From the IMG/VR virus record IMGVR_UViG_3300034061_004507, positions 1-41,649 of that record: DNA of 41,649 bases; one strand, given 5' to 3'. Positions 949-40,333 of the stretch are shown here, one piece after another. This DNA is from a virus. Position 1 is the stretch's first letter. Each line of letters opens with the position of its first letter. The notes beneath the pieces were generated by a model that saw nothing but the letters and a program-made list of their open reading frames with translations, was not told the origin of the DNA and searched no databases. The translations under genes were made by a program, and so were the position numbers.

Positions 949-1710
949 TTATAGTAATCTTCTGTTTCTTCTATAATACATTTCAGATAGTTTTTCTTCT
1001 TCTTCATCAAAATCATTAAAAGTACCTTTTATCTCATTTGGTGAAAAATTTTCAACTTCGTCTGATGTTAAAACATATTCATTTTTATCCGTTTTATCCA
1101 TTTCAATTTTTTTATCATCAAAAAAATCTGTTAATTTTTGATTATATGGATAAGAATCTAAAGACCTCAACATAAGTTTTTCTTCAGGTGTTTTATCACG
1201 ATACTTATCAAATTTGGTTTCTAAACTATTAATTCTATTCATTATTTGGTCAATATTAGCTAACTTTGCTTGTAAATCATCTAATTTACCAAATAAATTA
1301 TCCATAATCTCATCTTGTTTGTCTTTCATTTCTTTTTGAGAGGTAACAAGATCAGTGATATCAATTTCTTCCGTGTCTTCACCACCTTCTTCGCCTTCAC
1401 CACCAATTTCTTCAACGTCAGGATCATTTGCAACATCAACAGGTTCAGGAACTTCAGCACCACCCGCGGCGGGATCAGAAGGAGCGGCGGGATCAGCAGG
1501 AGCTGCGGGATCAGAAGGAGCGGCGGGATCAGCAGGTGCTGCGGGATCGGTAGCCATTGGGTCTGCTGCGGGATCAGCAGGAGCTGCCGGGTCGGCACCA
1601 GGGTCTGCTGGTGGGGCACCTGTCAATTCATCACCTTGTTCTTTAAGAATATATTTATTAATCTGATTAATTCTTCTTAATTCTTCAAGTATTTTTTTGT
1701 CTAAACTCAT
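949..1710 (-). CDS. acidic protein with DPAAP repeats and coiled coil, unknown function
   Basis: Product of 253 aa. Residues 1-27 are a charged helix (MSLDKKILEELRRINQINKY). Residues about 30-82 are a low-complexity stretch of ADPAAP and SDPAAP units, followed by a very acidic segment (residues about 88-120). Next comes a predicted coiled coil (EMKDKQDEIMDNLFGKLDDL, then LANIDQIMNRINSLETKF, residues about 125-170), and the tail is acidic and ends in RRNRRLL. The repeat is encoded by GC-rich DNA unlike the rest of the window. The flexible Pro/Ala linker between helices suggests a scaffold-like or virion-associated protein, but I do not recognise a family. It lies 12 bp after the 74-aa gene and is followed by a terminator, so it is the last gene of its operon. 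Confidence 0.75.
   Translation of the reverse strand: MSLDKKILEELRRINQINKYILKEQGDELTGAPPADPGADPAAPADPAADPMATDPAAPADPAAPSDPAAPADPAAPSDPAAGGAEVPEPVDVANDPDVEEIGGEGEEGGEDTEEIDITDLVTSQKEMKDKQDEIMDNLFGKLDDLQAKLANIDQIMNRINSLETKFDKYRDKTPEEKLMLRSLDSYPYNQKLTDFFDDKKIEMDKTDKNEYVLTSDEVENFSPNEIKGTFNDFDEEEEKLSEMYYRRNRRLL
1471..1611. repeat. GC-rich 18/36-bp tandem repeat coding for DPAA units
   Basis: A 36-bp unit made of two 18-bp halves (gggatcagaaggagcggc and gggatcagcaggagctgc) occurs at 1471-1506 and again, almost exactly, at 1507-1542. Degenerate copies continue to about 1611. On the minus strand it encodes alternating SDPAAP and ADPAAP, so copy-number changes stay in frame. Confidence 0.85.
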
Positions 1711-19693: not shown

Positions 19694-20713
19694 CTAATTA
19701 TATTTTTTCTTTTCTCCTCCTTTAGTTAAATAAATAGATATTGGTTCATCTTCATATTCTTGACTAACCATATCAGTTGTTTTTTCCACATTTTTAGGAT
19801 CGTCATCTGAAAAACCTATTTTAACGTTTTTAGTTAAAAAGTCTTCTATGTCATCCATAATTTCATTGTTAGCCACATCATTTTTAAATTGGGGTCTTAA
19901 ATCAGACAGTTTAACATTTGGTTCACTTCTTAAAATAGAGTGAATTAGTTCTCCCGCAGTTTGTCTACAATCAGATATAAATTTCCTTAAAGCCTTTTTC
20001 TTTCCTTCTTCAGGATTTGACGCACTACCTTCACCAAAACTAACAGGAGCCATTAAACATCTGTCCAAATATTCAATAACTAAATTACTGTCATCAAAAT
20101 CGGCAACAAATTTTTTCTCATCAATATCTTCTTTAATTGTAGTTAGTCCGGCATAAATTTTATGATATTTTCTAAGATTATCTATAAGTTCTTTTTTTCT
20201 TATACCATTGTGGTCAGCCGCGATTAAATTAAAAATAGCCTTTCTTAAAACTTCAGGATTGTGTCCCCTTGCCGTTATAATTGCAAAAATTGAACCTCCA
20301 TTAATACATTCAACAAAATCATTCCATGCTGGACCTACAGGTGCGGTCATAGAATCAATAATAAATTTATTATCACCTGCTTCTCTAAAATATTTAAACG
20401 GGTCTGAAGTGTACCCAACAATTGTTGTTCCCTTATAATTAAAGTCTTCTTCCCCTATTTGGTGTCTGTGTTCAGCAAAGTCTTCAGTTGACATGCCTAC
20501 CTCATCTTCATTTTCAGACATAACCATAATCTTAGTTGGCATAAACATTATATTATCATCCCAATCAAAAGCATAATATTTTAAATCAGGTCTTAATTTT
20601 AAACCCTCTTCAGTAGAAACAGTGTAAATACCTTCTTTAATTGCGTATTCATATACACTTTCTCTTATTTTCTTTTTAAGAGATTGTTCATAAATTTGTT
20701 TTCTAAAATTCAT
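19694..20713 (-). CDS. HAD-superfamily-like protein in the tail block
   Basis: Product of 339 aa. Motif I is at residues 50-54 (FDWDDN: Asp50 and Asp52 as candidate nucleophile and acid/base), motif II at about 145-150 (IITARGH), and motif IV near the C terminus (GFSDDDPKNVE, about 301-306). A Lys-rich helix (EEGKKKALRKFISDC) is a candidate for motif III. This is the HAD hydrolase layout, with an inserted region between motifs II and IV that may be the cap. Substrate unknown; phosphatase or nucleotide-end phosphatase activity is possible. Its start overlaps the stop of the upstream 46-aa gene (ATGA). Residues 1-30 form a charged helix (RKQIYEQSLKKKIRESVYEY). It sits between tube and sheath, so it may be a virion or assembly factor. 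Confidence 0.7.
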   Translation of the reverse strand: MNFRKQIYEQSLKKKIRESVYEYAIKEGIYTVSTEEGLKLRPDLKYYAFDWDDNIMFMPTKIMVMSENEDEVGMSTEDFAEHRHQIGEEDFNYKGTTIVGYTSDPFKYFREAGDNKFIIDSMTAPVGPAWNDFVECINGGSIFAIITARGHNPEVLRKAIFNLIAADHNGIRKKELIDNLRKYHKIYAGLTTIKEDIDEKKFVADFDDSNLVIEYLDRCLMAPVSFGEGSASNPEEGKKKALRKFISDCRQTAGELIHSILRSEPNVKLSDLRPQFKNDVANNEIMDDIEDFLTKNVKIGFSDDDPKNVEKTTDMVSQEYEDEPISIYLTKGGEKKKYN

Positions 20714-25438: not shown

Positions 25439-25954
25439 TTACAATCCTTTAAATTCGTTATCGTTTACAGGAGATGCAATAATTGATCTATAAAATCTCT
25501 TATAACCTGCATATGTGTGTTTATTATCTGTGTATATCCTACCATCGTTTACAACCGAATAGTATCTAACTCTACTTTCCGTTTCATAATAACCAATATA
25601 ATCACCAAATTGAATGTCTATACCTAATTCATCTAATTGAGATTGGTAAACACCAACCTTTAAATTACCTGGTTCCATTTGAGATAATTTTGAACTACCT
25701 AAATCTGTATTTGTAGGAGCCTCAATTTGAACATAACCTTTAAATTCAACAGGAGCTAAAAATTGTACTCCATCTTCAAGCGTTTCACCGTATACATCGT
25801 CTTTATTTGTTTTTTGTCTATCAACTCTGTAAAGAACTAAAGTAAAATTCATATCACCATGTAGCCATTCTTCACCCATGGAAATATCTAAGTTAAAATC
25901 CTCTTCAGAAAAGAATTTATTTAATCTAGTTATTGGTACTCTATTTTGTGTCAT
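25439..25954 (-). CDS. neck/connector protein, possibly gp14-like
   Basis: Product of 171 aa. Segments NKDDVYGETLEDGVQFLAPV and EFKGYVQIEAPTNTDLGSSK, then LKVGVYQSQLDELGIDIQFG with DYIGYYETESRVRYYSVVND, resemble the beta core of T4-type neck proteins (gp14): a D-x-V/L-YGE-x-L entry, then a strand naming a small-molecule-free barrel. It is the first gene of a two-gene unit with the gp15-like terminator (1-bp gap), as in T4 where gp13, gp14 and gp15 are adjacent. Its role would be joining portal and tail. Length is shorter than T4 gp14 (256 aa), so identity is moderate. A TATTTATA element ends 4 bp before the ATG, in the divergent region shared with the helicase gene. Confidence 0.55.
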   Translation of the reverse strand: MTQNRVPITRLNKFFSEEDFNLDISMGEEWLHGDMNFTLVLYRVDRQKTNKDDVYGETLEDGVQFLAPVEFKGYVQIEAPTNTDLGSSKLSQMEPGNLKVGVYQSQLDELGIDIQFGDYIGYYETESRVRYYSVVNDGRIYTDNKHTYAGYKRFYRSIIASPVNDNEFKGL

Positions 25955-25958
25955 ATAA

Positions 25959-25966
25959 TATAAATA
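25959..25966 (-). promoter_or_regulatory. TATTTATA element, minus side of divergent promoter region
   Basis: Minus-strand AGTATTTATATTATATG, ending 4 bp before the connector-gene ATG. It faces a plus-strand copy at 26001. Confidence 0.4.
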
Positions 25967-26000
25967 CTTTAATTGATTTTTTTATATTATTTACTATTTT

Positions 26001-26008
26001 TATTTATA
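26001..26008 (+). promoter_or_regulatory. TATTTATA element, plus side of divergent promoter region
   Basis: TATTTATAATATAATGG: ends 5 bp before the helicase ATG. Together with the minus-strand copy at 25959 it marks a 59-bp divergent intergenic region. Confidence 0.4.
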
Positions 26009-26013
26009 ATATA

Positions 26014-27777
26014 ATGGAAGAATTAATTTCAAAAACTCCCGAAACAAGAGCCCTTCAGTTATTAGATGATTATGTTGGGTCAAATAACTATATCTTAAAT
26101 TTAAAACACAAAAAACAAAATAGTAAGATATTTACACCCACAAGGCCACAAGCGGAGTACATTATAAATTTTCACGGAAGAGTACCAAAGGTTGCAAAAA
26201 AATGGGTAAAACTTGATTCATATTTTGGAAAAAAGATGATGGAAGATAAAATGTACACAAAAGAACCATCGGAAATTTATGTTGAGAAGTTGTTAGTTGA
26301 AAAAGATAAATCATATCATATATGGGGTAAAATTTTTAGTGGGGAAACTTTACATGATTTTTGGATTCCAAAATCAGCTTTAGTAAAAGACAATGAAGTT
26401 AAAAATGTTGTTATTGAGTATTCTAAATACGATCACAGGTCACCAATGTCTCACCAAAAAGAAGCGATTGAAAAATTAGTTAGAAATAAAAAGTTTATTT
26501 TGGCTGATGATATGGGTCTTGGTAAAACAACATCAACAATTATATCTGCACTTGAAACAGGGGCTAAAAAAATATTAATTATTTGTCCCGCATCATTAAA
26601 GATAAATTGGGAAAGAGAGATTGCAAATTATTCAGATAGAACCGTATATATTGCAGAAGGTAAGAAATTTTCAGATGAATCTGATTTTGTAATTATTAAC
26701 TACGATATATTAAAAAATTTTCACGACCCAAAAAAGAAAGACGACTCTATTATTTTAAAATCAAATTTTGACCTTGTGATTATGGATGAGGCTCACATGA
26801 TATCAAACCCACAAGCACAAAGAACAAAAATAGTAAATGATTTATGCGATAGATTAGATAGGGTTTGGTTGTTAACGGGGACACCAATGACCTCAAGACC
26901 AATGAATTATTTTAATTTATTAAAATTGGTTGATAGTCCTGTTGCCGCAAATTGGATGGCTTACGCAAAAAGATATTGTAATGGTTATCAGTTTAGTGTT
27001 GGAAAAAGAAAAGTTTGGAATGTTACAGGAGCATCAAACTTAGATGAATTAAGAGAAAGAACTCAAACACATATTCTAAGAAGATTAAAAGAAGAAGTTT
27101 TAGATTTACCTGATAAAATTATTACACCCGTTTATTTAAGATTAAAATCTAAAGACTACGAGGAACTTATGGGTGAATATTACGATTGGTATGATAAAAA
27201 CCAAGAAGAGTCTTCATCACTTACTATTCAGTTTGGCAAACTTATGAAAGTAAGAAAAGTAATTGCTCAAGAAAAAGTTAAATCAACAATTGAATTAGCG
27301 GAAAACATAATTGAACAAGGGAAGAAAGTTATCATATTTACAAACTTTACTGACACATTACAAGAAATATATAATCATTTTGGTAAATCTGCGGTTTATT
27401 TAGACGGTTCTTGTTCAAAACCTCATCGTCAAAAGGCGGTAGACGACTTTCAAGAAAATGAAAAAATTAAAGTATTTGTTGGTAATTTAAAGGCTGCAGG
27501 TGTTGGTATAACCTTAACCTCAGCCGAAGCAGTAATCATGAATGACTTATCATTTGTACCTGCAGAACACGCACAGGCGGAAGACAGATCACATAGGATA
27601 GGTCAAAAAAATTCAACATCCGTTTATTACCCATTATTTGAAAATACAATCGAGGGTGCAATTTATGACATCTTAACAAGAAAGAAAAAAATCATATCAA
27701 CAGTAATGGGCGATGATTTATTAGAAGACGCATCATCAATTGAAGAAATGTTAAATATGATTTCTAACAATAGATAA
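26014..27777 (+). CDS. SNF2-family helicase-like ATPase (SMARCAL1/UvsW-like)
   Basis: Product of 587 aa. Motif I is FILADDMGLGKTTSTI (Walker A, residues about 162-177), motif Ia ILIICPASLKINWEREI, motif II IMDEAHMISNP (DEAH, about 258-261), motif III LLTGTPM, and motifs V/VI GNLKAAGVGITLTSAEAVIM with DRSHRIGQ (about 524-530), the SNF2 signature. Residues 1-140 form an N-terminal domain of unknown fold that resembles the substrate-recognition part of SMARCAL1/HARP-like proteins. It would remodel or anneal DNA forks, the job UvsW has in T4. The ATG at 26014 is chosen because the open frame upstream (to 25933) runs back through the intergenic region and the start of the opposite gene and gives an unlikely hydrophobic N terminus. 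It is first in a plus-strand operon with superoxide dismutase. Confidence 0.88.
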   Translation: MEELISKTPETRALQLLDDYVGSNNYILNLKHKKQNSKIFTPTRPQAEYIINFHGRVPKVAKKWVKLDSYFGKKMMEDKMYTKEPSEIYVEKLLVEKDKSYHIWGKIFSGETLHDFWIPKSALVKDNEVKNVVIEYSKYDHRSPMSHQKEAIEKLVRNKKFILADDMGLGKTTSTIISALETGAKKILIICPASLKINWEREIANYSDRTVYIAEGKKFSDESDFVIINYDILKNFHDPKKKDDSIILKSNFDLVIMDEAHMISNPQAQRTKIVNDLCDRLDRVWLLTGTPMTSRPMNYFNLLKLVDSPVAANWMAYAKRYCNGYQFSVGKRKVWNVTGASNLDELRERTQTHILRRLKEEVLDLPDKIITPVYLRLKSKDYEELMGEYYDWYDKNQEESSSLTIQFGKLMKVRKVIAQEKVKSTIELAENIIEQGKKVIIFTNFTDTLQEIYNHFGKSAVYLDGSCSKPHRQKAVDDFQENEKIKVFVGNLKAAGVGITLTSAEAVIMNDLSFVPAEHAQAEDRSHRIGQKNSTSVYYPLFENTIEGAIYDILTRKKKIISTVMGDDLLEDASSIEEMLNMISNNR

Positions 27778-27788: not shown

Positions 27789-28499
27789 ATGAATATACTA
27801 AAAAAAACAATTTCAATTATTGAAGAAAAAATAAATGATGACTCTCCATCTAAAGAAAAATTAATTTCAGAAATAAAAAGAGTTAGTATTGAAAAATTAC
27901 CATATGAGTATAATTCTTTTGGTTCTTTTATTGATAGTGAAACTATGAATGTTCATTACAATAAACATTATAAAGGGTATGTTGAAAAATTAAATTTAGA
28001 ATTAGATAAAATAAAAGGTAAAGATTTAGATTTAGAACAAATAATTAAAAAAATTTCTAATTTTAATAAAAAAGTAAAAAACAACGGGGGTGGAGCATTT
28101 AACCATGCGTTATTTTGGAAAATGTTATCCCCAAAAAAACAAAAAATATTAGATCCGATTTTAGGAAAAATTAATAAAGAATTTGGTTCGTTTAATGAAT
28201 TTAAAGAAAAATTTGAAGAAGAGGCCAAAAATAGATTTGGTTCAGGTTGGGTTTGGTTAATTTTAACTGATTCTAATAAATTAAAAATTGTCACAACATC
28301 AAATCAAGACAATCCTCTTATGGATACGGAAAAAGAAAGAGGGTACCCACTTTTAGGTTTAGACCTTTGGGAACACGCTTATTATTTAAAATATCAAAAT
28401 CAAAGGGACAAATATATTTCTAATTTTTGGAAAGTTGTTAATTGGGGGTTTGTAAATGATTTATATACTACACAACTAAAAAGAAAAGATTCTAAATAA
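27789..28499 (+). CDS. Fe/Mn superoxide dismutase (Mn-type)
   Basis: Product of 236 aa. Metal ligands are at His56 (MNVHYNKHYKGYV), His106 (GGGAFNHALFWKML), Asp192 and His196 (GLDLWEHAYYLKYQNQR). The gating residues His60 and Tyr64 are present, and FGSGWVWLI and NFWKVVNWG are the family signatures. Gln173 in SNQDNPLM together with GGGAFNH is the Mn-type pattern (E. coli SodA). Residues 1-36 are an extra helical N terminus not in E. coli SodA. It converts superoxide to O2 and H2O2, presumably in the infected cell's cytoplasm, since no signal peptide is seen. It sits 11 bp after the helicase stop and 29 bp before the neck gene. All key residues are present, so it should be active. Confidence 0.93.
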   Translation: MNILKKTISIIEEKINDDSPSKEKLISEIKRVSIEKLPYEYNSFGSFIDSETMNVHYNKHYKGYVEKLNLELDKIKGKDLDLEQIIKKISNFNKKVKNNGGGAFNHALFWKMLSPKKQKILDPILGKINKEFGSFNEFKEKFEEEAKNRFGSGWVWLILTDSNKLKIVTTSNQDNPLMDTEKERGYPLLGLDLWEHAYYLKYQNQRDKYISNFWKVVNWGFVNDLYTTQLKRKDSK

Positions 28500-28528: not shown

Positions 28529-29647
28529 ATGTCTACTATTATTATCACCGGTCAAGAAAGAGAGGCACTTTATAAAAGAATAAGAAATCTTTTAGGAGCA
28601 CCTTTACGTTCAGTCGAATTGGAAGACGAAATGATGGATTCATTATTAGAACTTTCAATTGAAGATTATGAACAACATATACAAGATTGGCTTATTGAAG
28701 CACAATGGTCTTCTGTGTATGGGTTAAATTTAGACGAACAATCAATAACAAGAGCATTAACTACTCGTGATATGAATTGGGAGACTCAATACACTTATGC
28801 CTACTCTAAGATTGTTGGTTTACAAGCAGGTGGTGATTGGGTTTTAGAAAAAGATTATATTGATTTAGTACCGGGTCAACAGATATATGAAATACCTGCA
28901 GGTCGAGAAATTAACGAACTTTTATGGTTTTCAAGATCGGAATTAGACGCAGCATATTTTGATCCATTTATGGGTGGATTTGGTGGATTTGGTGGTATTG
29001 GTTTAGGTGGTGGTGCTGGGTTTTCACAAATGGGTACGACTGGTAATTATTTTGTTACACCGGCCTTTGACATTCTTTTAAGAATGCAAGATATAAATAT
29101 TAAAAGAAGAATTATTACGGGAGACTTAACGTACAGGGTAACAGCACTACCTGATGGAAAAAAAGCTCTACATTTATATAATGTACCAGGGGGTAAGTTT
29201 GATTTTGGTAACATAAGTAGAAACCAATACAAAGTTTGGTATTGGTATTATGATACTGAAAATAGGGAAGACTGTTTAGCAAACAACCCTGATGTTGTTA
29301 GACTACCTAGTGATATTCCATTAGAAAGATTAAGATGGGATAAATTAAACAACCCATCAAAAACTTGGGTTAGAAGGTGGTTTACAGCATACTGTAAAGA
29401 AACTTTATCTAAAGTTAGAGGTAAATATAGTGGTAACTTAAAAACTCCTGACTCTGAATTAACATTAGAGTACCAATCTTTGGCGACCGAAGCAAAAGAT
29501 GAAAAAACTTCTTTATGGGAAGAACTAAAAACAAGATTAGAAAGATTAAGACCTGAAAAACTCATGGAACAAAAGGCTTTACAGGCTGAAAATTTAAATA
29601 AATTATTAAAATTCAGACCATTTCAAAGCCCTATCAATATAGTTTAA
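28529..29647 (+). CDS. neck protein, gp13-like
   Basis: Product of 372 aa. The start (RIRNLLGAPLRSVELEDEMM, then DSLLELSIEDYEQHIQDWLI) follows the T4 gp13 style: a short helix, LGAP, then an acidic helix that packs on the portal. A long beta core (DILLRMQDINIKRRIITGDL, then YRVTALPDGKKALHLYNVPG) and a C-terminal helical part (KETLSKVRGKYSGNLKTPDS) continue. A Gly-rich loop (GGFGGFGGIGLGGGAGFSQM) at about residues 149-168 is unusual. T4 gp13 is 309 aa. It would seal the portal vertex and join the tail to the head. It is on the plus strand, opposite to the gp14/gp15-like genes, a rearrangement relative to T4. Identity is by pattern and position. Confidence 0.6.
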   Translation: MSTIIITGQEREALYKRIRNLLGAPLRSVELEDEMMDSLLELSIEDYEQHIQDWLIEAQWSSVYGLNLDEQSITRALTTRDMNWETQYTYAYSKIVGLQAGGDWVLEKDYIDLVPGQQIYEIPAGREINELLWFSRSELDAAYFDPFMGGFGGFGGIGLGGGAGFSQMGTTGNYFVTPAFDILLRMQDINIKRRIITGDLTYRVTALPDGKKALHLYNVPGGKFDFGNISRNQYKVWYWYYDTENREDCLANNPDVVRLPSDIPLERLRWDKLNNPSKTWVRRWFTAYCKETLSKVRGKYSGNLKTPDSELTLEYQSLATEAKDEKTSLWEELKTRLERLRPEKLMEQKALQAENLNKLLKFRPFQSPINIV

Positions 29648-29651
29648 TTTT

Positions 29652-29984
29652 ATGGCGGTATTTAAAACATCACAAATAAAAAAAACAATTAACGGTAAAG
29701 AAGTTTTTGTTTCAGAGAGTGTTATTATAAATAGTATTTCATATAGCACAAATGGTGAAAACTATATTGTAGTAAAAGATGTTAATAACTGTTTAATTTT
29801 TTTAAATTCAGATACAAGCGATCATGTTATAATAAAATCATTAACAAACGTTTTAGTTAAATCAAACGAACTAATAGATGAGGAATTTAATGAAGTAGAA
29901 CTAAATAAAGGTGCCTGTGTCGAATTTAAAAAAATTGGTGATTATTGGTACATACTATCTTCAGACGGGTTGAAGAACTCTTAG
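29652..29984 (+). CDS. small hypothetical protein (110 aa)
   Basis: Product of 110 aa, 4 bp after the neck gene. Beta-rich pattern: VFKTSQIKKTINGKEVFVSE, then IINSISYSTNGENYIVVKDV and FLNSDTSDHVIIKSLTNVLV, with VEFKKIGDYWYILSSDG near the end. A small virion or head-decoration beta domain is likely; no family recognised. Its stop overlaps that of the convergent DNA polymerase C-terminal frame (TAG at 29982, TAA at 29981-29983 on the other strand), and a hairpin (CTTAGT / ACTAAG, 29980-29996) spans the two stops. Confidence 0.55.
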   Translation: MAVFKTSQIKKTINGKEVFVSESVIINSISYSTNGENYIVVKDVNNCLIFLNSDTSDHVIIKSLTNVLVKSNELIDEEFNEVELNKGACVEFKKIGDYWYILSSDGLKNS

Positions 29985-31003
29985 TCAAAAACTAAGGACA
30001 TTAAATCCCCATCTTCATCGAATTCATAAATATCATCATCATCTACTTCATTTTTTAACTTACTTTCTAACATAATTCTTCTATTGTTTTCAACTCTTTC
30101 ACTATCCACTAAATTAATTGTGTCATCAATATACATGTAGTAAGGGTCAATTCCAACACTTTTCCAAAACGTAACTTCCATATCAGAAAGAGTTAATACC
30201 TCATCTAACTTATCTTGGTCTTTTTCTTTCATAGGAAACCCTCTACCCATAATAGTTTGTGATTTTGTAAATATTGGCATATCTTTAGGATTCTCAATTA
30301 AAATATCTTTTCTAATTTCAGGACTATAAACAACTAACAGAGGTTCAATTCTTTTATTAAATGCTGCCAAATATCTTGGTACATTATATTCACCTAATAA
30401 ATCAGGATTTAGTTCAATTTCTTTTTCATCGATTAAATAACAATTTAAAATAACTTCACTTTTTGATAACATTTCAAGTGGTACAGCACCATAACCATCC
30501 ATGTAGTCTTGTATTTGTTTTTTAGTCATCTTGGTTGTTTTCTTTTGAACGTCTCCATGTGATTTTTTTTCACCGTTATTAACGTAATAGATTGTATCAC
30601 CTAAACCAGGATTTTTACCAGCATTCATCAAAAGTTCCATATGTGCTTGACGAGACATTAAACTTCCTGCCTTTGTTGTTTTTGTGATGTGAACTTTATA
30701 ATCCTCTATTGATTGTTTAACACGAGCCTTGTTTGCAATCTTTGCTAATGGGATTTGTTTATTAAATATTTTATCTACATACTCATAGTAAAAATCCAAA
30801 AACTCGGCACCCTTACCATCAAGTAACATTCTTAGTCCTTTATCTAAAAATTCTGCAACATATGTTTGAAGTTTTTTAGATTTAATTGTATTACCTGTTA
30901 ATTTAACTTTACCTTTATCTGTTAGAAGTGCGTAGTTTTTACGTGCCACGTTAATTGTTGCAGGCCATACACCATCAATATCAAGACCCATTTCGTTTCT
31001 CAT
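29981..31003 (-). CDS. 43: family B DNA polymerase, C-terminal fragment (second frame)
   Basis: Product of 340 aa from the ATG at 31003. It begins after the catalytic motif C of the neighbouring frame and holds the rest of the palm, the thumb and the C-terminal tail: EMGLDIDGVWPATINVARKN (like the KKRYAL part of T4 gp43), LRMLLDGKGAEFLDFYYEYV (thumb helix) and an acidic end DEDGDLMSLVFD. The frame continues upstream of the ATG to at least 31036 (EADVAEYNDLFM), which would join directly to the upstream frame if one G were skipped. Thus the ATG at 31003 may not be the true start. No Shine-Dalgarno sequence. It converges on the plus-strand gene ending at 29984. Confidence 0.8.
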   Translation of the reverse strand: MRNEMGLDIDGVWPATINVARKNYALLTDKGKVKLTGNTIKSKKLQTYVAEFLDKGLRMLLDGKGAEFLDFYYEYVDKIFNKQIPLAKIANKARVKQSIEDYKVHITKTTKAGSLMSRQAHMELLMNAGKNPGLGDTIYYVNNGEKKSHGDVQKKTTKMTKKQIQDYMDGYGAVPLEMLSKSEVILNCYLIDEKEIELNPDLLGEYNVPRYLAAFNKRIEPLLVVYSPEIRKDILIENPKDMPIFTKSQTIMGRGFPMKEKDQDKLDEVLTLSDMEVTFWKSVGIDPYYMYIDDTINLVDSERVENNRRIMLESKLKNEVDDDDIYEFDEDGDLMSLVFD

Positions 31004-31028
31004 AAATAAGTCATTGTATTCTGCAACA

Positions 31029-32861
31029 TCAGCTTCCTTCTTCTACTAAACCATTAAGACCTTTACCTACATAAGTGTAGTTATCTCTATCTTCAGGAGT
31101 TTCAAAGTTTACACCATCCGTATCCATTACAAGTGGAGTGTAACCTTTACTCATGAAGTACATAATCATCTGTCGTAAATACTGCCTTCCGGTACACGTA
31201 ATCTGTTCTCCCATGTCCATATCACCCCAAGGGAAGACGTGGGGTGCAGATAATGATCCAAAGAAGGCATTGATAAAGATTTTGATTGGTAATTGTTTCC
31301 TGTCGTATGAGACAGAAAGTTTCGGATCCGTTTTTTTAAATTCACTTGCTAAATTTTTATATTTTATACGGGTATCTCTAAAGTATTTTAACATACTTTT
31401 CATCGCACCCGTTACGTCACATTTTGGAAATACATCATGAACCAACTGAATAGAAGGATAAAGAGAAGAGTAGTCAAGTTTTAATACTTTTCTTGAGTAC
31501 CCTACTTGAAGTAATCTTGACAAACCTCCTGTAAATTTTCTTTTTGGTAACTTTTTAGGAATTGCTAAATTATGTTTATAGGACCACGCACACATAATCA
31601 TTTTCCATAAGGTAGCGGTACCCATAGTTGAAAGTCTCTCGTATGTTGTTGGTACAAGTTTAGAAAGTAAAAAGTTTGCTTGATTAAACTGTTCATCAAC
31701 AACCATAGTTTCATAAAGGTCATCATCAAGATAATCTTCAATTATTTTTGAACCTGTAATTTTTTTATATACGTCATCTCTTCTTGAACATATTTCATCT
31801 ATTTTAGAATCAAGTCCTACTTTTTTGTAGTTACCGTTTTCTTTATTCATCCAATATTCTTCATTGTCAAAATAAATTTTACCGATTTTATCACCTTCTA
31901 CATAAACACGATTTTCTTTTTCTGCTTCAATAAATTTGGTAATGTACTTCAAAGACCAACTCTTAATGTCAGAGTTAATAGCCTGTGCTCTACGAACTGC
32001 GTGCGCAATATCAATAATATTGTAACCCCACATTTGTGTTTGAACGTAAGGTTCCATTTCATTCGCTAACTTCAAAATCCCGTCTTTTTGTTTTAATGAA
32101 TAATCAGGATTTAAAGTTTTAGCAATTTTTTTAATATTTAATTTTAAAATCTCTGCACGTTTTAAAATAAAAGGAAAGTCAAAGAATGCTGAGTTGTATC
32201 CACCAACAAGAGAAGGTTTTAGTTCGTCTATTGTTTTAAAAAACTCAATAATCATTTGTCTTTCTTCATCTTCATTTTGAGCGGATAATAATTTTAGAAA
32301 ACCACGATTGTCTTTCATCCCTATCAAGAATATTTTACTTGTCTTGGGATCTAAACCTGTGGTCTCGATATCGAATACAAACCTGTGTATTTCATCATAT
32401 TCATCAAACCCTTTAAATAGTCTTTTACTTTTTTGAATTAAGTATTGTTCGACAGGGGATAGTATTGTAATTGCGTCTGAATTATCTCTACCCCACGGAT
32501 CGAGACCTCCACCTTTAAAAAAGTTTACAAGATTTGAATATGATTTTGTTGTTTTAACCAAGAACGTTAACCCGTTCTTCAATCTTTCGTCACCGTGATC
32601 TTCTAATTTTTCTATGATAATGCCGTTTTCAGACATTGCCTTTTTTTGTAAGTCTTTATTCCCTTTATAAAAGTTTTTACTTCTAAGGTCACCAACCCAA
32701 GCAAACGGAATAAAAGTATCCATTCTCAAAAGTTTTCCTTTGATTGGGTCTTGTATTACTTTAAATATTTTATCTGATTTGTAATCGTATTCTAATGCTA
32801 CGATATATTTTTCTTCGTCTTCGCCGTGTAAAAAGCGTTCAATTTCTTCTTGTGGAACCAT
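31029..32861 (-). CDS. 43: family B DNA polymerase, N-terminal and palm part (first frame)
   Basis: Product of 610 aa. 3'-5' exonuclease motif I is FVFDIETTGLDP (Asp164, Glu166), exonuclease motif II is VGGYNSAFFDFPF, polymerase motif A LKLDYSSLYPSIQ (about 460), motif B KIFINAFFGSLS (about 525) and motif C VMDTDGVNFE (about 579). It stops at TGA 31031-31029 with the sequence GKGLNGLVEEGS, just after the catalytic Asp pair. A normal family B polymerase cannot stop here, so the frame must be continued by the downstream fragment. With a +1 shift the join reads GLVEE-EADVAEYNDLF and gives a protein of about 960 aa (T4 gp43 is 898). It replicates the phage genome with gp32. A TATTTATT element lies 60 bp upstream. 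Confidence 0.9.
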   Translation of the reverse strand: MVPQEEIERFLHGEDEEKYIVALEYDYKSDKIFKVIQDPIKGKLLRMDTFIPFAWVGDLRSKNFYKGNKDLQKKAMSENGIIIEKLEDHGDERLKNGLTFLVKTTKSYSNLVNFFKGGGLDPWGRDNSDAITILSPVEQYLIQKSKRLFKGFDEYDEIHRFVFDIETTGLDPKTSKIFLIGMKDNRGFLKLLSAQNEDEERQMIIEFFKTIDELKPSLVGGYNSAFFDFPFILKRAEILKLNIKKIAKTLNPDYSLKQKDGILKLANEMEPYVQTQMWGYNIIDIAHAVRRAQAINSDIKSWSLKYITKFIEAEKENRVYVEGDKIGKIYFDNEEYWMNKENGNYKKVGLDSKIDEICSRRDDVYKKITGSKIIEDYLDDDLYETMVVDEQFNQANFLLSKLVPTTYERLSTMGTATLWKMIMCAWSYKHNLAIPKKLPKRKFTGGLSRLLQVGYSRKVLKLDYSSLYPSIQLVHDVFPKCDVTGAMKSMLKYFRDTRIKYKNLASEFKKTDPKLSVSYDRKQLPIKIFINAFFGSLSAPHVFPWGDMDMGEQITCTGRQYLRQMIMYFMSKGYTPLVMDTDGVNFETPEDRDNYTYVGKGLNGLVEEGS

Positions 32862-35824: not shown

Positions 35825-38800
35825 TTATACGTCTATATCAACTATAGTTAATACATCCGTTGAGTCATAGAAAGACAATCTAGGTGTACCATCTTGTCTG
35901 TCAAAAATAATTTTTGTCATATTTGCATCATACACATATGTGGCAGATGTAAAGTCATAATTAAATACTTTTGTAGATAAGATTTGATTTTTAGTGAAAG
36001 CGCTAGTGATTATATTACCACCAGCAGTTTGACTACCGTCATCTCCAAAGTAATCACCAATATTATTATTGTTAAATCCAGATGAAATAACATTTTGTGT
36101 ACCAACACCAGCATTACCAAAGAAATTACCGATTTTGTTGTATTGGAAATCAGTATCAATTTCGTTAAATGCTGAATAATTACCCAAATTATTAGATATA
36201 AAGTTACCACCAATAGCACTTGGGGATCCGCCTATACCTGAGTTACCAACAAATAAATTACCTATTGTATTATCCAATGTGTTTTGACCAAATACGTTAA
36301 ACCAAAAGTCGTCACCAATTTTGTTATTTGTGAAGTTTAAATCAATAGCGTTGAATATAAAATTATCACCAATAACATTAAACTGAAATCCGTCATTTAT
36401 GATGTTACCACCATCTCCGTTTGAACCGCCACCAACTGAAGGGTAGTTTGTATCATTACCAAAGAAATTACCAATTTTATTGTATTTGAAATCATTGAAT
36501 ATTACGTTCTGTACCGGTGAACCAGGACCTGAACTATCATTACCAAAGTAATTACCTATTTCATTACCTTCAAAACCATCAACTACTGTATTTCCAACAA
36601 AGAAATTTTCAATATCATTACCTATGAAACCATTACCAATAGAATTTAGAGTAAAATAATTTTCAATATCATTACCAGCAAAGGCAATACCTATATTATT
36701 ATTTTCAAAATTATTTTCAATATCATTACCTGTAAATGTATTACCTATAGTATTATTTTTAAAATCATTTTCAATTGCATTACCTATAAAGTCGTTAGAT
36801 ATGTTATTTTGGAAAAAATTATTACCTATTACATTATTATTTGAATCTTTACCTATTGTATTATTATTAAAAGCTTTAGCAATAATATTATAATCAAAAT
36901 TGTTACCGATAATATTAGTATTAAACCCATTACCTAATGTATTATTTCTAAAATCCTTACCGATATTGTTATCACTAAAATTATTACCTATTACATTATT
37001 TCTTAAACCATTCCCAATAATGTTATTAGAAGATAAATCATTTATTTTGTTATTTCTAGAGGTATTTCCAATGGAATTATTACTAAACTCATTACCGATA
37101 TTATTTGATACGAATTCATCACCTATACTGTTAGTAACGAAGTAATTACCAATAGAATTTCCAGTAAAAATATTACCTATAGAATTTCCACTAAAAACAT
37201 TTTCAATATCATTACCAGCAAAGGCAATACCTATATTATTATTACCAAAATAATTTCCTATTTCATTACCTTCAAAACCATCTAATATTGTATTTCCAAT
37301 AAAGTAATTTTTAATTGAGTTATCTTCAAAATTATCACTAACGGTATTACCTGAGAAAAAATTCCCGATATTATTATTGTAAAAGTATTCACCAATAGTG
37401 TTATCCAGAAAATTATCGTTTATAATATTACCTTGTAGTTCTCCCAATCCGAAACCAAAATCGTTACCTATTGTGTTATTACTAAATAATGCACCAATAT
37501 TGTTAGAGGCAAAATTATCACCAATAGTGTTTCCAAAAACGACACCTTTAAATGTGTTTCCAAAAACACTACCCAAAAAGTCATTATCAGAAATAAATGG
37601 ACCGAAGGTATTACCATTACAACTTCCACTAATTTGATTTCCTCCAAAACCCCAATCTGTTCTATTTTCACTAAAATCCTGATACGTTATATTACCTTTA
37701 AATTCGTTGAAAATTTGGTTATCATTAAAATTACCGTATATTGTATTGTTTTCAAATTGTTCACCGATTCTATTGTTAAATGTTTCTCCACTTATTGAAT
37801 TATTATTAAATCCGAAACCAATTTCATTCTTATAAAAATCTTGGGTTATTATGTTATTACTAAAATTTAAACCAATTTGATTATCTTCAAAATTATCACC
37901 AACGGTGTTATTTTTAAAATCATTACCAATAACATTATTATACGCAAATTGACCAATAATGTTATTTTCAAAATTATCATTTATGATATTACCATATGGG
38001 TCACCACCACCATAACCAAAATCACTACCAATTATGTTATTTCTAAAATTATTACCAATGGTATTATATGCGAATCTTTCACCATTATTTTGTTGTGTGT
38101 AAATTGAGTTCCATTCAGTATCACCAGGACCAGGCCATTGATTATTAAATGGTGGTGTGTCAGTTATTGTGTTATATAATCCACCTTGACTATCTCTTGT
38201 TAATTCTACAACACCAGGAACGATAATATCCACTTCTGAACCATAATTAGTTTTAGTAAACACAACGGTTGAACCTGTGGTATTACCATTTGAATCCAGT
38301 TCTTGTCTTTCATATTGGAATCCACCACCATTTCCACCTTGTGTCCATTGTGTGAATTTAATTCTAAAATATTGTTGTGTTGATATAACTCTCATCACAA
38401 GTTCCTTACCTAAAATATAACTACCAACATTATTACTGAGTGAAATTCTTAATGTGTTATATGTTCTTGTCGATACCGTTGATAAGTCGTTCCACCCAAA
38501 TAAATCATCGTTTGATGGTCTATTATTTTCAAAATAAGTACCAACTTTATTAGTGTTAAATTCATTACTAATTACATTATTATAAAAATAATAATCAGTT
38601 GTGTTTTGATAAAAATCATCATCTATAGTATTGTTATTAAACCCATTACCAATATTATTTAATCTAAAATCACTACCAGTTGTGTTATTGTTAAATCCGT
38701 TTAAAATGGTATTACCCTGAAATTCACCATTAATTTCATTCTCTTGAAAGTTTGTACCAATTTGGTTATTTTGAAAATCTTGTCTAATAACATTTTCATT

Positions 38801-40333
38801 AAAATTATTACGAATATAATTTCTATAGAATTCAAAATTACCATAGTTAGCAAAATCACCGATTACATTATCATTAAAGTTGTCCAATATTTGATTTTTA
38901 TAAAAATCAGAATAAATCGTATTATTATTAAATTCATTAGCAATTAGGTTATCATAAAATTGTGAAAATATTTCGTTATTGTTAAATTCGTTACCAATTA
39001 GGTTATCATAAAAATTCCCATCAACAATATTATTATTAAAACCGTTACCAATTTTGTTATCCTCAAAGTCATCGTATATGGTGTTATTATTAAATCCAAC
39101 ACCTATTTGGTTATCAACGAAATCAATATTGTTAAATATTTTATTGTTGTTGAAGTTATCACCTATCACGTTGTCATTAAAATCATCACAGATAATTAGA
39201 TTATCTCGGAAATTAGCAGCTATTTGATTATCTGTGAAATCCTCGTCATTGTAAATTGTATTATTCTCAAACTGGTCTCCTATAATATTATGCTCAACAT
39301 CACTCTTAAATGTGTTATTCCTAAAATTGTTACCTATTCGGTTTCCAATTACATCCTCACCGAAGACATTATTTGGTAATAAAAAAGTATTCTGGCTCCA
39401 ATCTATAAATGATGCGACATCACCAACGTAATTTGAAATTATAGTTTCATCATCAAATAAAAACGTAGGGTGTTCCGTATAATCAATTGATATATTATTT
39501 TGTTTATAGGTAAGACCGTCTCTTTGTGCTAAATAAAAACTAGAACCAGATAAAACAGCTGGTATAGTTAATCCACTTACAACCATACTTGTGTCAGCCG
39601 ATATTGATACAATTTCAAAGAAAATCTCACTTGAATTAGGAATTGCTATGTGATCACCAGTATTATAATTTGAAAATACTGTTCCTGTACCTATTACTTC
39701 ACCCGTATTTTGAATTAGTTCAATCGTTCCTTTGGCGATATCTTTTTCTTCATAATAGTAGTTATCATACCTTCTAAATAAAACATCTCTATGGTCATAG
39801 TCAGTTCGGTTGTTAAATTCATCAACCCTTTCGGTAATTCTACCAAATGCAACATTATTTGTAACTTCAGTAGCACTAAATGTCCAGTCATATCTTATTT
39901 TATCATTTGGGTATGTTGGTTGATAAGCATCACTTGAAATCGTATTAACTGATGTTGAGAGAACCATTAAAGGTTCAACAGGTCCTTGTTTGTAATTAGA
40001 TGTGATACCTGTATTAATAATAGGATTACCATTATAATCATAATCAGGTTGATCATAACATGTTCTAAAGTCGGTTATTATGTAGTAAGATCCTGTAGTT
40101 AATCCACTTCCATCAATCAGGTCTTGAATTTCTGAATATGTTACTTCAGTGGCACCAGTAAAGGATCCACCAAATTCTTCAAGAGAACCATCCGGATTCT
40201 TTTTTTCAAATGACCCACTATTTAAATCAACACCAACGTAATAAGTGTCAGTGGTTCCACTTAAATTATTGAAATCTTCTCCTGTAACGTAAATTGTGGT
40301 TTTACCATTATTTTGTTGTATTATTCTTCCCAT
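35825..40333 (-). CDS. large fibre with 9-residue (5+4) solenoid repeats (1502 aa)
   Basis: Product of 1502 aa. Residues 1-320 form a non-repeat N-terminal domain (FGRITERVDEFNNRTDYDHR, then DVLFRRYDNYYYEEKDIAKG), as in other phage fibre proteins. Residues about 321-600 and about 752-1447 consist of a repeat whose core is N-x-I-G-x-x-F-x-N: in TIYDDFEDNKIGNGFNNNIV and on, Phe recurs every 9 residues and Ile/Val sits 4-5 residues away. Residues about 601-752 break the repeat with a beta insert (TYNTLRISLSNNVGSYILGK). The end (SATYVYDANMTKIIFDRQDG) caps the array. The regular I-F spacing and Asn stacks suggest a beta-solenoid rod. A TATTTATA element lies 12 bp upstream. Its role as tail fibre or particle decoration is inferred from composition and neighbours. 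Confidence 0.75.
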   Translation of the reverse strand: MGRIIQQNNGKTTIYVTGEDFNNLSGTTDTYYVGVDLNSGSFEKKNPDGSLEEFGGSFTGATEVTYSEIQDLIDGSGLTTGSYYIITDFRTCYDQPDYDYNGNPIINTGITSNYKQGPVEPLMVLSTSVNTISSDAYQPTYPNDKIRYDWTFSATEVTNNVAFGRITERVDEFNNRTDYDHRDVLFRRYDNYYYEEKDIAKGTIELIQNTGEVIGTGTVFSNYNTGDHIAIPNSSEIFFEIVSISADTSMVVSGLTIPAVLSGSSFYLAQRDGLTYKQNNISIDYTEHPTFLFDDETIISNYVGDVASFIDWSQNTFLLPNNVFGEDVIGNRIGNNFRNNTFKSDVEHNIIGDQFENNTIYNDEDFTDNQIAANFRDNLIICDDFNDNVIGDNFNNNKIFNNIDFVDNQIGVGFNNNTIYDDFEDNKIGNGFNNNIVDGNFYDNLIGNEFNNNEIFSQFYDNLIANEFNNNTIYSDFYKNQILDNFNDNVIGDFANYGNFEFYRNYIRNNFNENVIRQDFQNNQIGTNFQENEINGEFQGNTILNGFNNNTTGSDFRLNNIGNGFNNNTIDDDFYQNTTDYYFYNNVISNEFNTNKVGTYFENNRPSNDDLFGWNDLSTVSTRTYNTLRISLSNNVGSYILGKELVMRVISTQQYFRIKFTQWTQGGNGGGFQYERQELDSNGNTTGSTVVFTKTNYGSEVDIIVPGVVELTRDSQGGLYNTITDTPPFNNQWPGPGDTEWNSIYTQQNNGERFAYNTIGNNFRNNIIGSDFGYGGGDPYGNIINDNFENNIIGQFAYNNVIGNDFKNNTVGDNFEDNQIGLNFSNNIITQDFYKNEIGFGFNNNSISGETFNNRIGEQFENNTIYGNFNDNQIFNEFKGNITYQDFSENRTDWGFGGNQISGSCNGNTFGPFISDNDFLGSVFGNTFKGVVFGNTIGDNFASNNIGALFSNNTIGNDFGFGLGELQGNIINDNFLDNTIGEYFYNNNIGNFFSGNTVSDNFEDNSIKNYFIGNTILDGFEGNEIGNYFGNNNIGIAFAGNDIENVFSGNSIGNIFTGNSIGNYFVTNSIGDEFVSNNIGNEFSNNSIGNTSRNNKINDLSSNNIIGNGLRNNVIGNNFSDNNIGKDFRNNTLGNGFNTNIIGNNFDYNIIAKAFNNNTIGKDSNNNVIGNNFFQNNISNDFIGNAIENDFKNNTIGNTFTGNDIENNFENNNIGIAFAGNDIENYFTLNSIGNGFIGNDIENFFVGNTVVDGFEGNEIGNYFGNDSSGPGSPVQNVIFNDFKYNKIGNFFGNDTNYPSVGGGSNGDGGNIINDGFQFNVIGDNFIFNAIDLNFTNNKIGDDFWFNVFGQNTLDNTIGNLFVGNSGIGGSPSAIGGNFISNNLGNYSAFNEIDTDFQYNKIGNFFGNAGVGTQNVISSGFNNNNIGDYFGDDGSQTAGGNIITSAFTKNQILSTKVFNYDFTSATYVYDANMTKIIFDRQDGTPRLSFYDSTDVLTIVDIDV
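35990..39375. repeat. tandem 27-bp coding repeats of the fibre gene
   Basis: Degenerate 27-bp units (9 codons) over most of the stretch, with an insert at about 38075-38530. A 43-bp identical copy occurs at 36661-36703 and 37201-37243, exactly 540 bp (20 units) apart; a second pair (cctatttcattaccttcaaaaccatc) at about 36555 and 37257 is 702 bp (26 units) apart. This is evidence of in-frame unit shuffling or duplication. Confidence 0.85.

Follow-up and report, generated by a model that had tools for sequence, protein, structure and literature searches.

A superoxide dismutase with a conserved [LI]xE leader end in uncultured T4-like phages: a candidate packaged and processed head protein

The viral stretch analysed here (41,649 nucleotides, positions 1 to 41,649 of IMG/VR record IMGVR_UViG_3300034061_004507; hereafter, the window) encodes a 236-aa Mn-type superoxide dismutase (SOD) at positions 27789..28499 on the plus strand, and within a large uncultured T4-like phage group this SOD is a core gene of long standing. 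The conserved [LI]xE at the end of its N-terminal extension, together with the fusion of relatives to further domains, points to head packaging and proteolytic processing. The best single explanation, to which we give about an even chance, is that the SOD is packaged in the virion, processed by a protease, and delivered with the genome. The extension would act as a propeptide that takes the SOD precursor into the prohead core, and a phage gp21-like prohead protease would cut after [LI]xE (E28/I29 in the window; slashes mark candidate cuts), so that the mature head would contain an SOD close to the canonical form. Ejected along with the DNA, this enzyme would then remove host superoxide early in infection; protection of packaged DNA or proteins is a further possible role. 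Neither the [LI]xE end nor the fusions were noticed in the first-pass annotation of the window.

The assignment of the ORF as an SOD is secure. Both Pfam domains scored far above their curated cut-offs (Sod_Fe_N, 1.6e-21, 77 bits against 27; Sod_Fe_C, 1.1e-40, 138.2 bits against 20.9), and the closest solved structures were MnSODs, with that of Sphingobacterium sp. T2 (6gsc/5a9g) at the top (E ~1e-58, ~44% identity). Alignment to this structure placed the metal ligands at H56, H106, D192, and H196, and Y64, Q173 (the Mn-type Gln), E195, and Y199 were invariant across 19 aligned relatives. The GGG-x-x-NH signature was present as GGGAFNH, and the NQD signature as NQDNPLMD, containing Q173. The protein has the two domains, the three His and one Asp, the second-shell Gln, and the Gly-Gly of the Fe/Mn SOD family, and the complete Mn-type enzyme described in the first pass, with intact ligands and Mn signatures, was borne out. 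The product looks like an active Mn superoxide dismutase.

Homology to most cellular SODs began only at residue 33-36; the added N-terminal extension recorded earlier is therefore real. In the AF2 model, the C-terminal domain was good, and the extension formed helices at residues 2-15 and 21-30. The pLDDT was ~40-62 across residues 1-36, so the extension is probably flexible. Codons 1-28 (27789..27872, plus strand) constitute the fast-evolving part that ends in LISE and is the candidate propeptide, as indicated by the conserved [LI]xE, dN, and low pLDDT. Codons 29-236 (27873..28496, plus strand) cover the SOD domain, the predicted mature product of a cut at E28/I29, which was delimited from the start of homology and from the specificity of T4 gp21, known to cleave after L/I-X-E (PMC9026906). 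In close pairs, dN was ~0.26-0.53 over the 27 codons that close the extension versus 0.05-0.10 in the SOD domain, on which purifying selection was strong (dN/dS 0.04-0.09).

The [LI]xE motif was located directly before the SOD domain in 58 distinct phage SODs of the first alignment, in 77/77 distinct proteins of a second set, and in 94 of the 97 distinct proteins, as called, of a wider set. For the remaining three (L379, L381, and L396), the site appeared once the reading frame was followed back beyond the start first assumed (ILKE/M twice, LLE/M once); one of them seems to begin at a non-ATG codon, and in the other two the leader lies in a different frame, the SOD frame of L379 and L381 being broken from the visible leader by a frameshift (~2880-2970). 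Among 78 cellular SODs, one had a matching pattern, at a different offset. The window site is LISE (residues 25-28), and the middle residue varied among phage SODs (S, N, T, L, V, Q, D, or K). The P1' residue was I (56), M (32), A (4), or Q (2), that is, I or M in 88/94, whereas capsid and other candidate sites mostly had A, G, S, D, Q, or E. A fast extension with a fixed [LI]xE resembles a propeptide with a fixed cleavage motif, though the residues could also be kept by constraint on a helix or linker. When conserved [LI]xE was searched for in 98 orthologous families, a modest N-terminal excess was obtained (38, 24, and 13 sites); the boundary criterion of this test lacked specificity, [LI]xK having scored higher, and the search is too weak to carry weight.

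The SOD gene is flanked, as the first pass had it, by genes for an SNF2-type helicase upstream (25933..27777, plus strand; first ATG 26014) and a neck/connector protein downstream (28529..29647, plus strand; phrog_211 head-tail adaptor, 5.9e-11), both of which are conserved neighbours. The neck gene was used as the anchor of a locus survey. SOD was found between helicase and neck, directly upstream of the neck gene, in 77/78 neck-anchored loci, a count that includes 8 SODs outside the search pattern that were recognised in the locus listing; L394 was without SOD. The sample consisted of the best matches to the neck protein and thus describes this phage group, not phages at large. The order PolB, 110-aa gene, neck, SOD, helicase, and then more virion genes recurred in G001, G002, G005, and G006. 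In loci L236-L240, a leader and a nuclease were present in the same slot (VTLILSE/SKAEKC) and SOD was absent; the helicase upstream of the slot in L236 (516-2882) appears to contain an intein (sequence after MGLGK). Elsewhere in the window, the family-B DNA polymerase (29981-32861, minus strand) is interrupted near 31003-31029 by a frame change that divides it into parts of 610 and 340 aa, either a real disruption or a sequence error, and its G002 counterpart is a single 941-aa ORF. The region 35825-40333 (minus strand) encodes a 1502-aa protein built from numerous short repeats of the NNxIGNxF type, which may be a beta-helix tail or fibre protein.

In relatives, the SOD was encountered alone, as HExxH domain-SOD (~362 aa), as SOD-tail (~510 aa), and as HExxH-SOD-tail (711-820 aa), and, wherever flanking sequence could be read, these forms lay in the slot downstream of the helicase. 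The linkers of the multi-module proteins carried [LI]xE (LITE/G, INE/S, ILSE/A, INE/I), including the linker preceding the tail. Each tail type examined also stood alone behind a leader such as MKIIITESS (L315, L317), MKITISEGQ (G001_118104), or MKFIMSESQ (L072_9479, MKFIMSESQYN); the leader of L236 was MKNTENKV...LILSES. One standalone nuclease-like gene was located between protease and scaffold in G001. The ~270-aa tail of the 510-aa class resembled PD-(D/E)XK weakly, its best structural matches being Holliday-junction resolvases and a homing endonuclease (E >0.01), and it is tentatively regarded as a PD-(D/E)XK nuclease. The HExxH motif suggests that the N-terminal module may be a zinc protease; the Pfam search found nothing in this module. 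The HExxH domain was also seen alone (129 aa) at another locus, beside an FKBP-like gene (L295, L296, L310, and L300 3001-3390). In the HExxH-SOD fusions, the [LI]xE site is internal, and the extension therefore doubles as a linker between domains.

A Peptidase_S77 prohead protease was detected in 6/12 related contigs and a gp23-type capsid protein in 7/12; the missing genes mean little, as all records may be partial. In the window, a 41.6-kb fragment, no capsid or gp21-like protease gene was found among the ORFs examined. In each of the four contigs read through, the capsid prosequence had SHLINE/A at its end, in agreement with the T4 rule (PMC9026906). Targeting propeptides of T4 internal proteins have 10-19 residues (PMC9026906), and those of giant phages are longer (PMC9026906, PMC5694885). 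In four contigs, a leader pattern, mostly of the RLTESDL type, was observed on 29 proteins whose mature parts formed 29 unrelated clusters, and [LI]xE occurred at residues 15-30 in 26 of the 29 versus 190 of 882 other proteins; including a second leader type gave 45 mature clusters. The leaders of the standalone tail modules are similar to those of these ~45 unrelated proteins. Dozens of unrelated proteins of G002 and G001 (L101-L133) had leaders of the MKKVIRLTESDLxRIVKRVINE or MKIIITESQ types.

Such leader-bearing proteins are treated here as candidate head cargo. Two further candidates lie in the window, both on the minus strand: a DWDDN (HAD-like) motif protein (19694..20713) with a leader ending in AIKE/G, the leaders of its orthologues ending in LNE/G (G002, G006), ILE/G (G001), and VSE/G (G005), and a Pro/Ala-rich protein (949..1710) with a leader ending in YILKE/Q, with YVLNE/Q and YILNE/Q ends in G002 and G006. 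The window SOD has the L/I-X-E propeptide end of T4-type internal proteins (LISE 25-28, conserved), and its leader did not resemble those of the other candidate cargo: a search with the profile of phage-wide leaders missed those of the SODs (best E 0.11, mostly >1), and the two are therefore not claimed to be the same. A wider proposal, which we put forward tentatively and below an even chance, is that the prohead protease matures a modular injected polyprotein at the neck locus, with HExxH, SOD, nuclease-like, and other exchangeable modules joined by L/I-x-E linkers, and that this polyprotein is part of a set of ~45 or more leader-tagged head cargo proteins.

Relatives of the window SOD were encoded in at least 593 IMG/VR stretches, so that the earlier statement that Fe/Mn SOD is rare in phages did not hold, and the gene is not missing from related phage genomes. 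From these, 80 relatives of 59 to 83% identity were kept, nearly all aligned from residue 1-11; other phage copies share the extension. No PHROGs family matched the window SOD. In the 'phages' collection, 14 SOD records were found, none a convincing phage copy and most of them unannotated phage-named or bacterial records; MW462191.1, the one examined in full, was rejected as a phage SOD copy on account of its bacterial genes (class C beta-lactamase, efflux, Tet(X4)), and records such as OR850395.1 and AFYI01000005.1 look like bacterial sequence. The bacterial look of phage-named records with an SOD match would suit a gene that is host sequence, an assembly chimera, or a very recent capture, as would the closest cellular relatives of the window SOD, which were mainly Bacteroidota (41-52% identity) and make a Bacteroidota host likely. 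Nevertheless, in a tree of 54 phage representatives and 65 cellular SODs, the phage SODs did not nest among the cellular ones and formed one clade outside all those sampled (support 100/100, stem 0.45). This deep clade and the top cellular identity of 52% argue against recent host capture, the identical gene order in independent contigs speaks against a chimera or host contig, and we consider this origin extremely improbable. Of the roles proposed in the first pass, protection from oxidative stress stays plausible, and that of a recent host-derived auxiliary gene is not supported.

The main rival to packaging is an ordinary auxiliary SOD, made during infection, that remains cytoplasmic and reduces the superoxide of the infected cell, with the extension as an uncleaved linker or structural addition; we rate it as a serious possibility that falls somewhat short of even. 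It agrees with the intact and constrained catalytic residues, with the failure of the leaders to match the phage-wide profile, and with I or M at P1'; the [LI]xE could belong to a helix adjoining the SOD domain, and SOD is listed as a phage auxiliary gene, for example in Microcystis viruses (PMC12542629). It leaves unexplained, however, why L/I-x-E with a free middle residue is kept in a fast-evolving extension, and why the fused tail modules are also found alone behind leaders. The leader-profile mismatch, the P1' residues, and the internal position of the site in HExxH-SOD fusions also count directly against a packaged SOD, as do the modest and non-specific 98-family test and the lack of capsid and protease genes among the window ORFs examined. 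Alternatively, the SOD fold might be kept mainly as a module for head-neck assembly or dimerisation, with enzyme activity secondary. The SOD nearly always adjoins the neck gene and is fused to other domains, which would suit such a role, but the ligands, the second-shell Gln and Tyr, and the dimer-interface Glu are all conserved, and some loci have the nuclease without the SOD, so that SOD is not essential to the neck; we regard this role as unlikely.

If the SOD is packaged, these phages would bring in a ready-made antioxidant enzyme as infection begins, and among bacterial viruses they would offer a parallel to the chlorovirus virion SOD. Metabolic enzymes and exchangeable modules would then be among the goods delivered by T4-type head packaging, and an [LI]xE that follows a fast-evolving leader would serve as a sequence rule for picking head cargo in uncultured phages. 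Even if the enzyme is cytoplasmic, an SOD that is a core gene at one fixed locus in a large phage group suggests that oxidative stress matters in infection.

In the literature, we found no report that links SOD, in the present sense, to a prohead protease or to capsid targeting. Ejection proteins of SPN3US and phiKZ are processed by the prohead protease and packed with the genome, and their N-termini are common to diverged proteins; the protease motif and propeptides differ from those of the phage SOD, and the available part of the source names no SOD among these giant-phage proteins (PMC5694885). The closer parallel is with T4 IPI, IPII, IPIII, and Alt, in which a propeptide ending in L/I-X-E likewise precedes the mature part, and the related phages encode the same kinds of protease and capsid proteins. 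Unlike these T4 proteins, the SOD would be a metabolic enzyme as cargo, its packaging being predicted from sequence, and its extension is 28 residues long in the window, has a different sequence, and can also serve as an internal linker. With the bacterial MnSOD of Sphingobacterium sp. T2 (6gsc/5a9g; ~44% identity), the phage enzyme shares the fold, the four ligands, the Mn-type Gln, and the dimer-interface Glu, whereas the extension ending in [LI]xE, the domain fusions in relatives, and the separate deep clade set it apart. The Cu/Zn SOD fold is unrelated to the Fe/Mn SOD fold. Chlorovirus PBCV-1 has a Cu/Zn SOD (A245R) that is packaged in the particle and thought to lower superoxide in infected cells (PMC7019647). 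A245R differs from the phage SOD in its Cu/Zn type and in belonging to a eukaryotic algal virus; both are viral SODs, with packaging reported for A245R and predicted for the phage enzyme.
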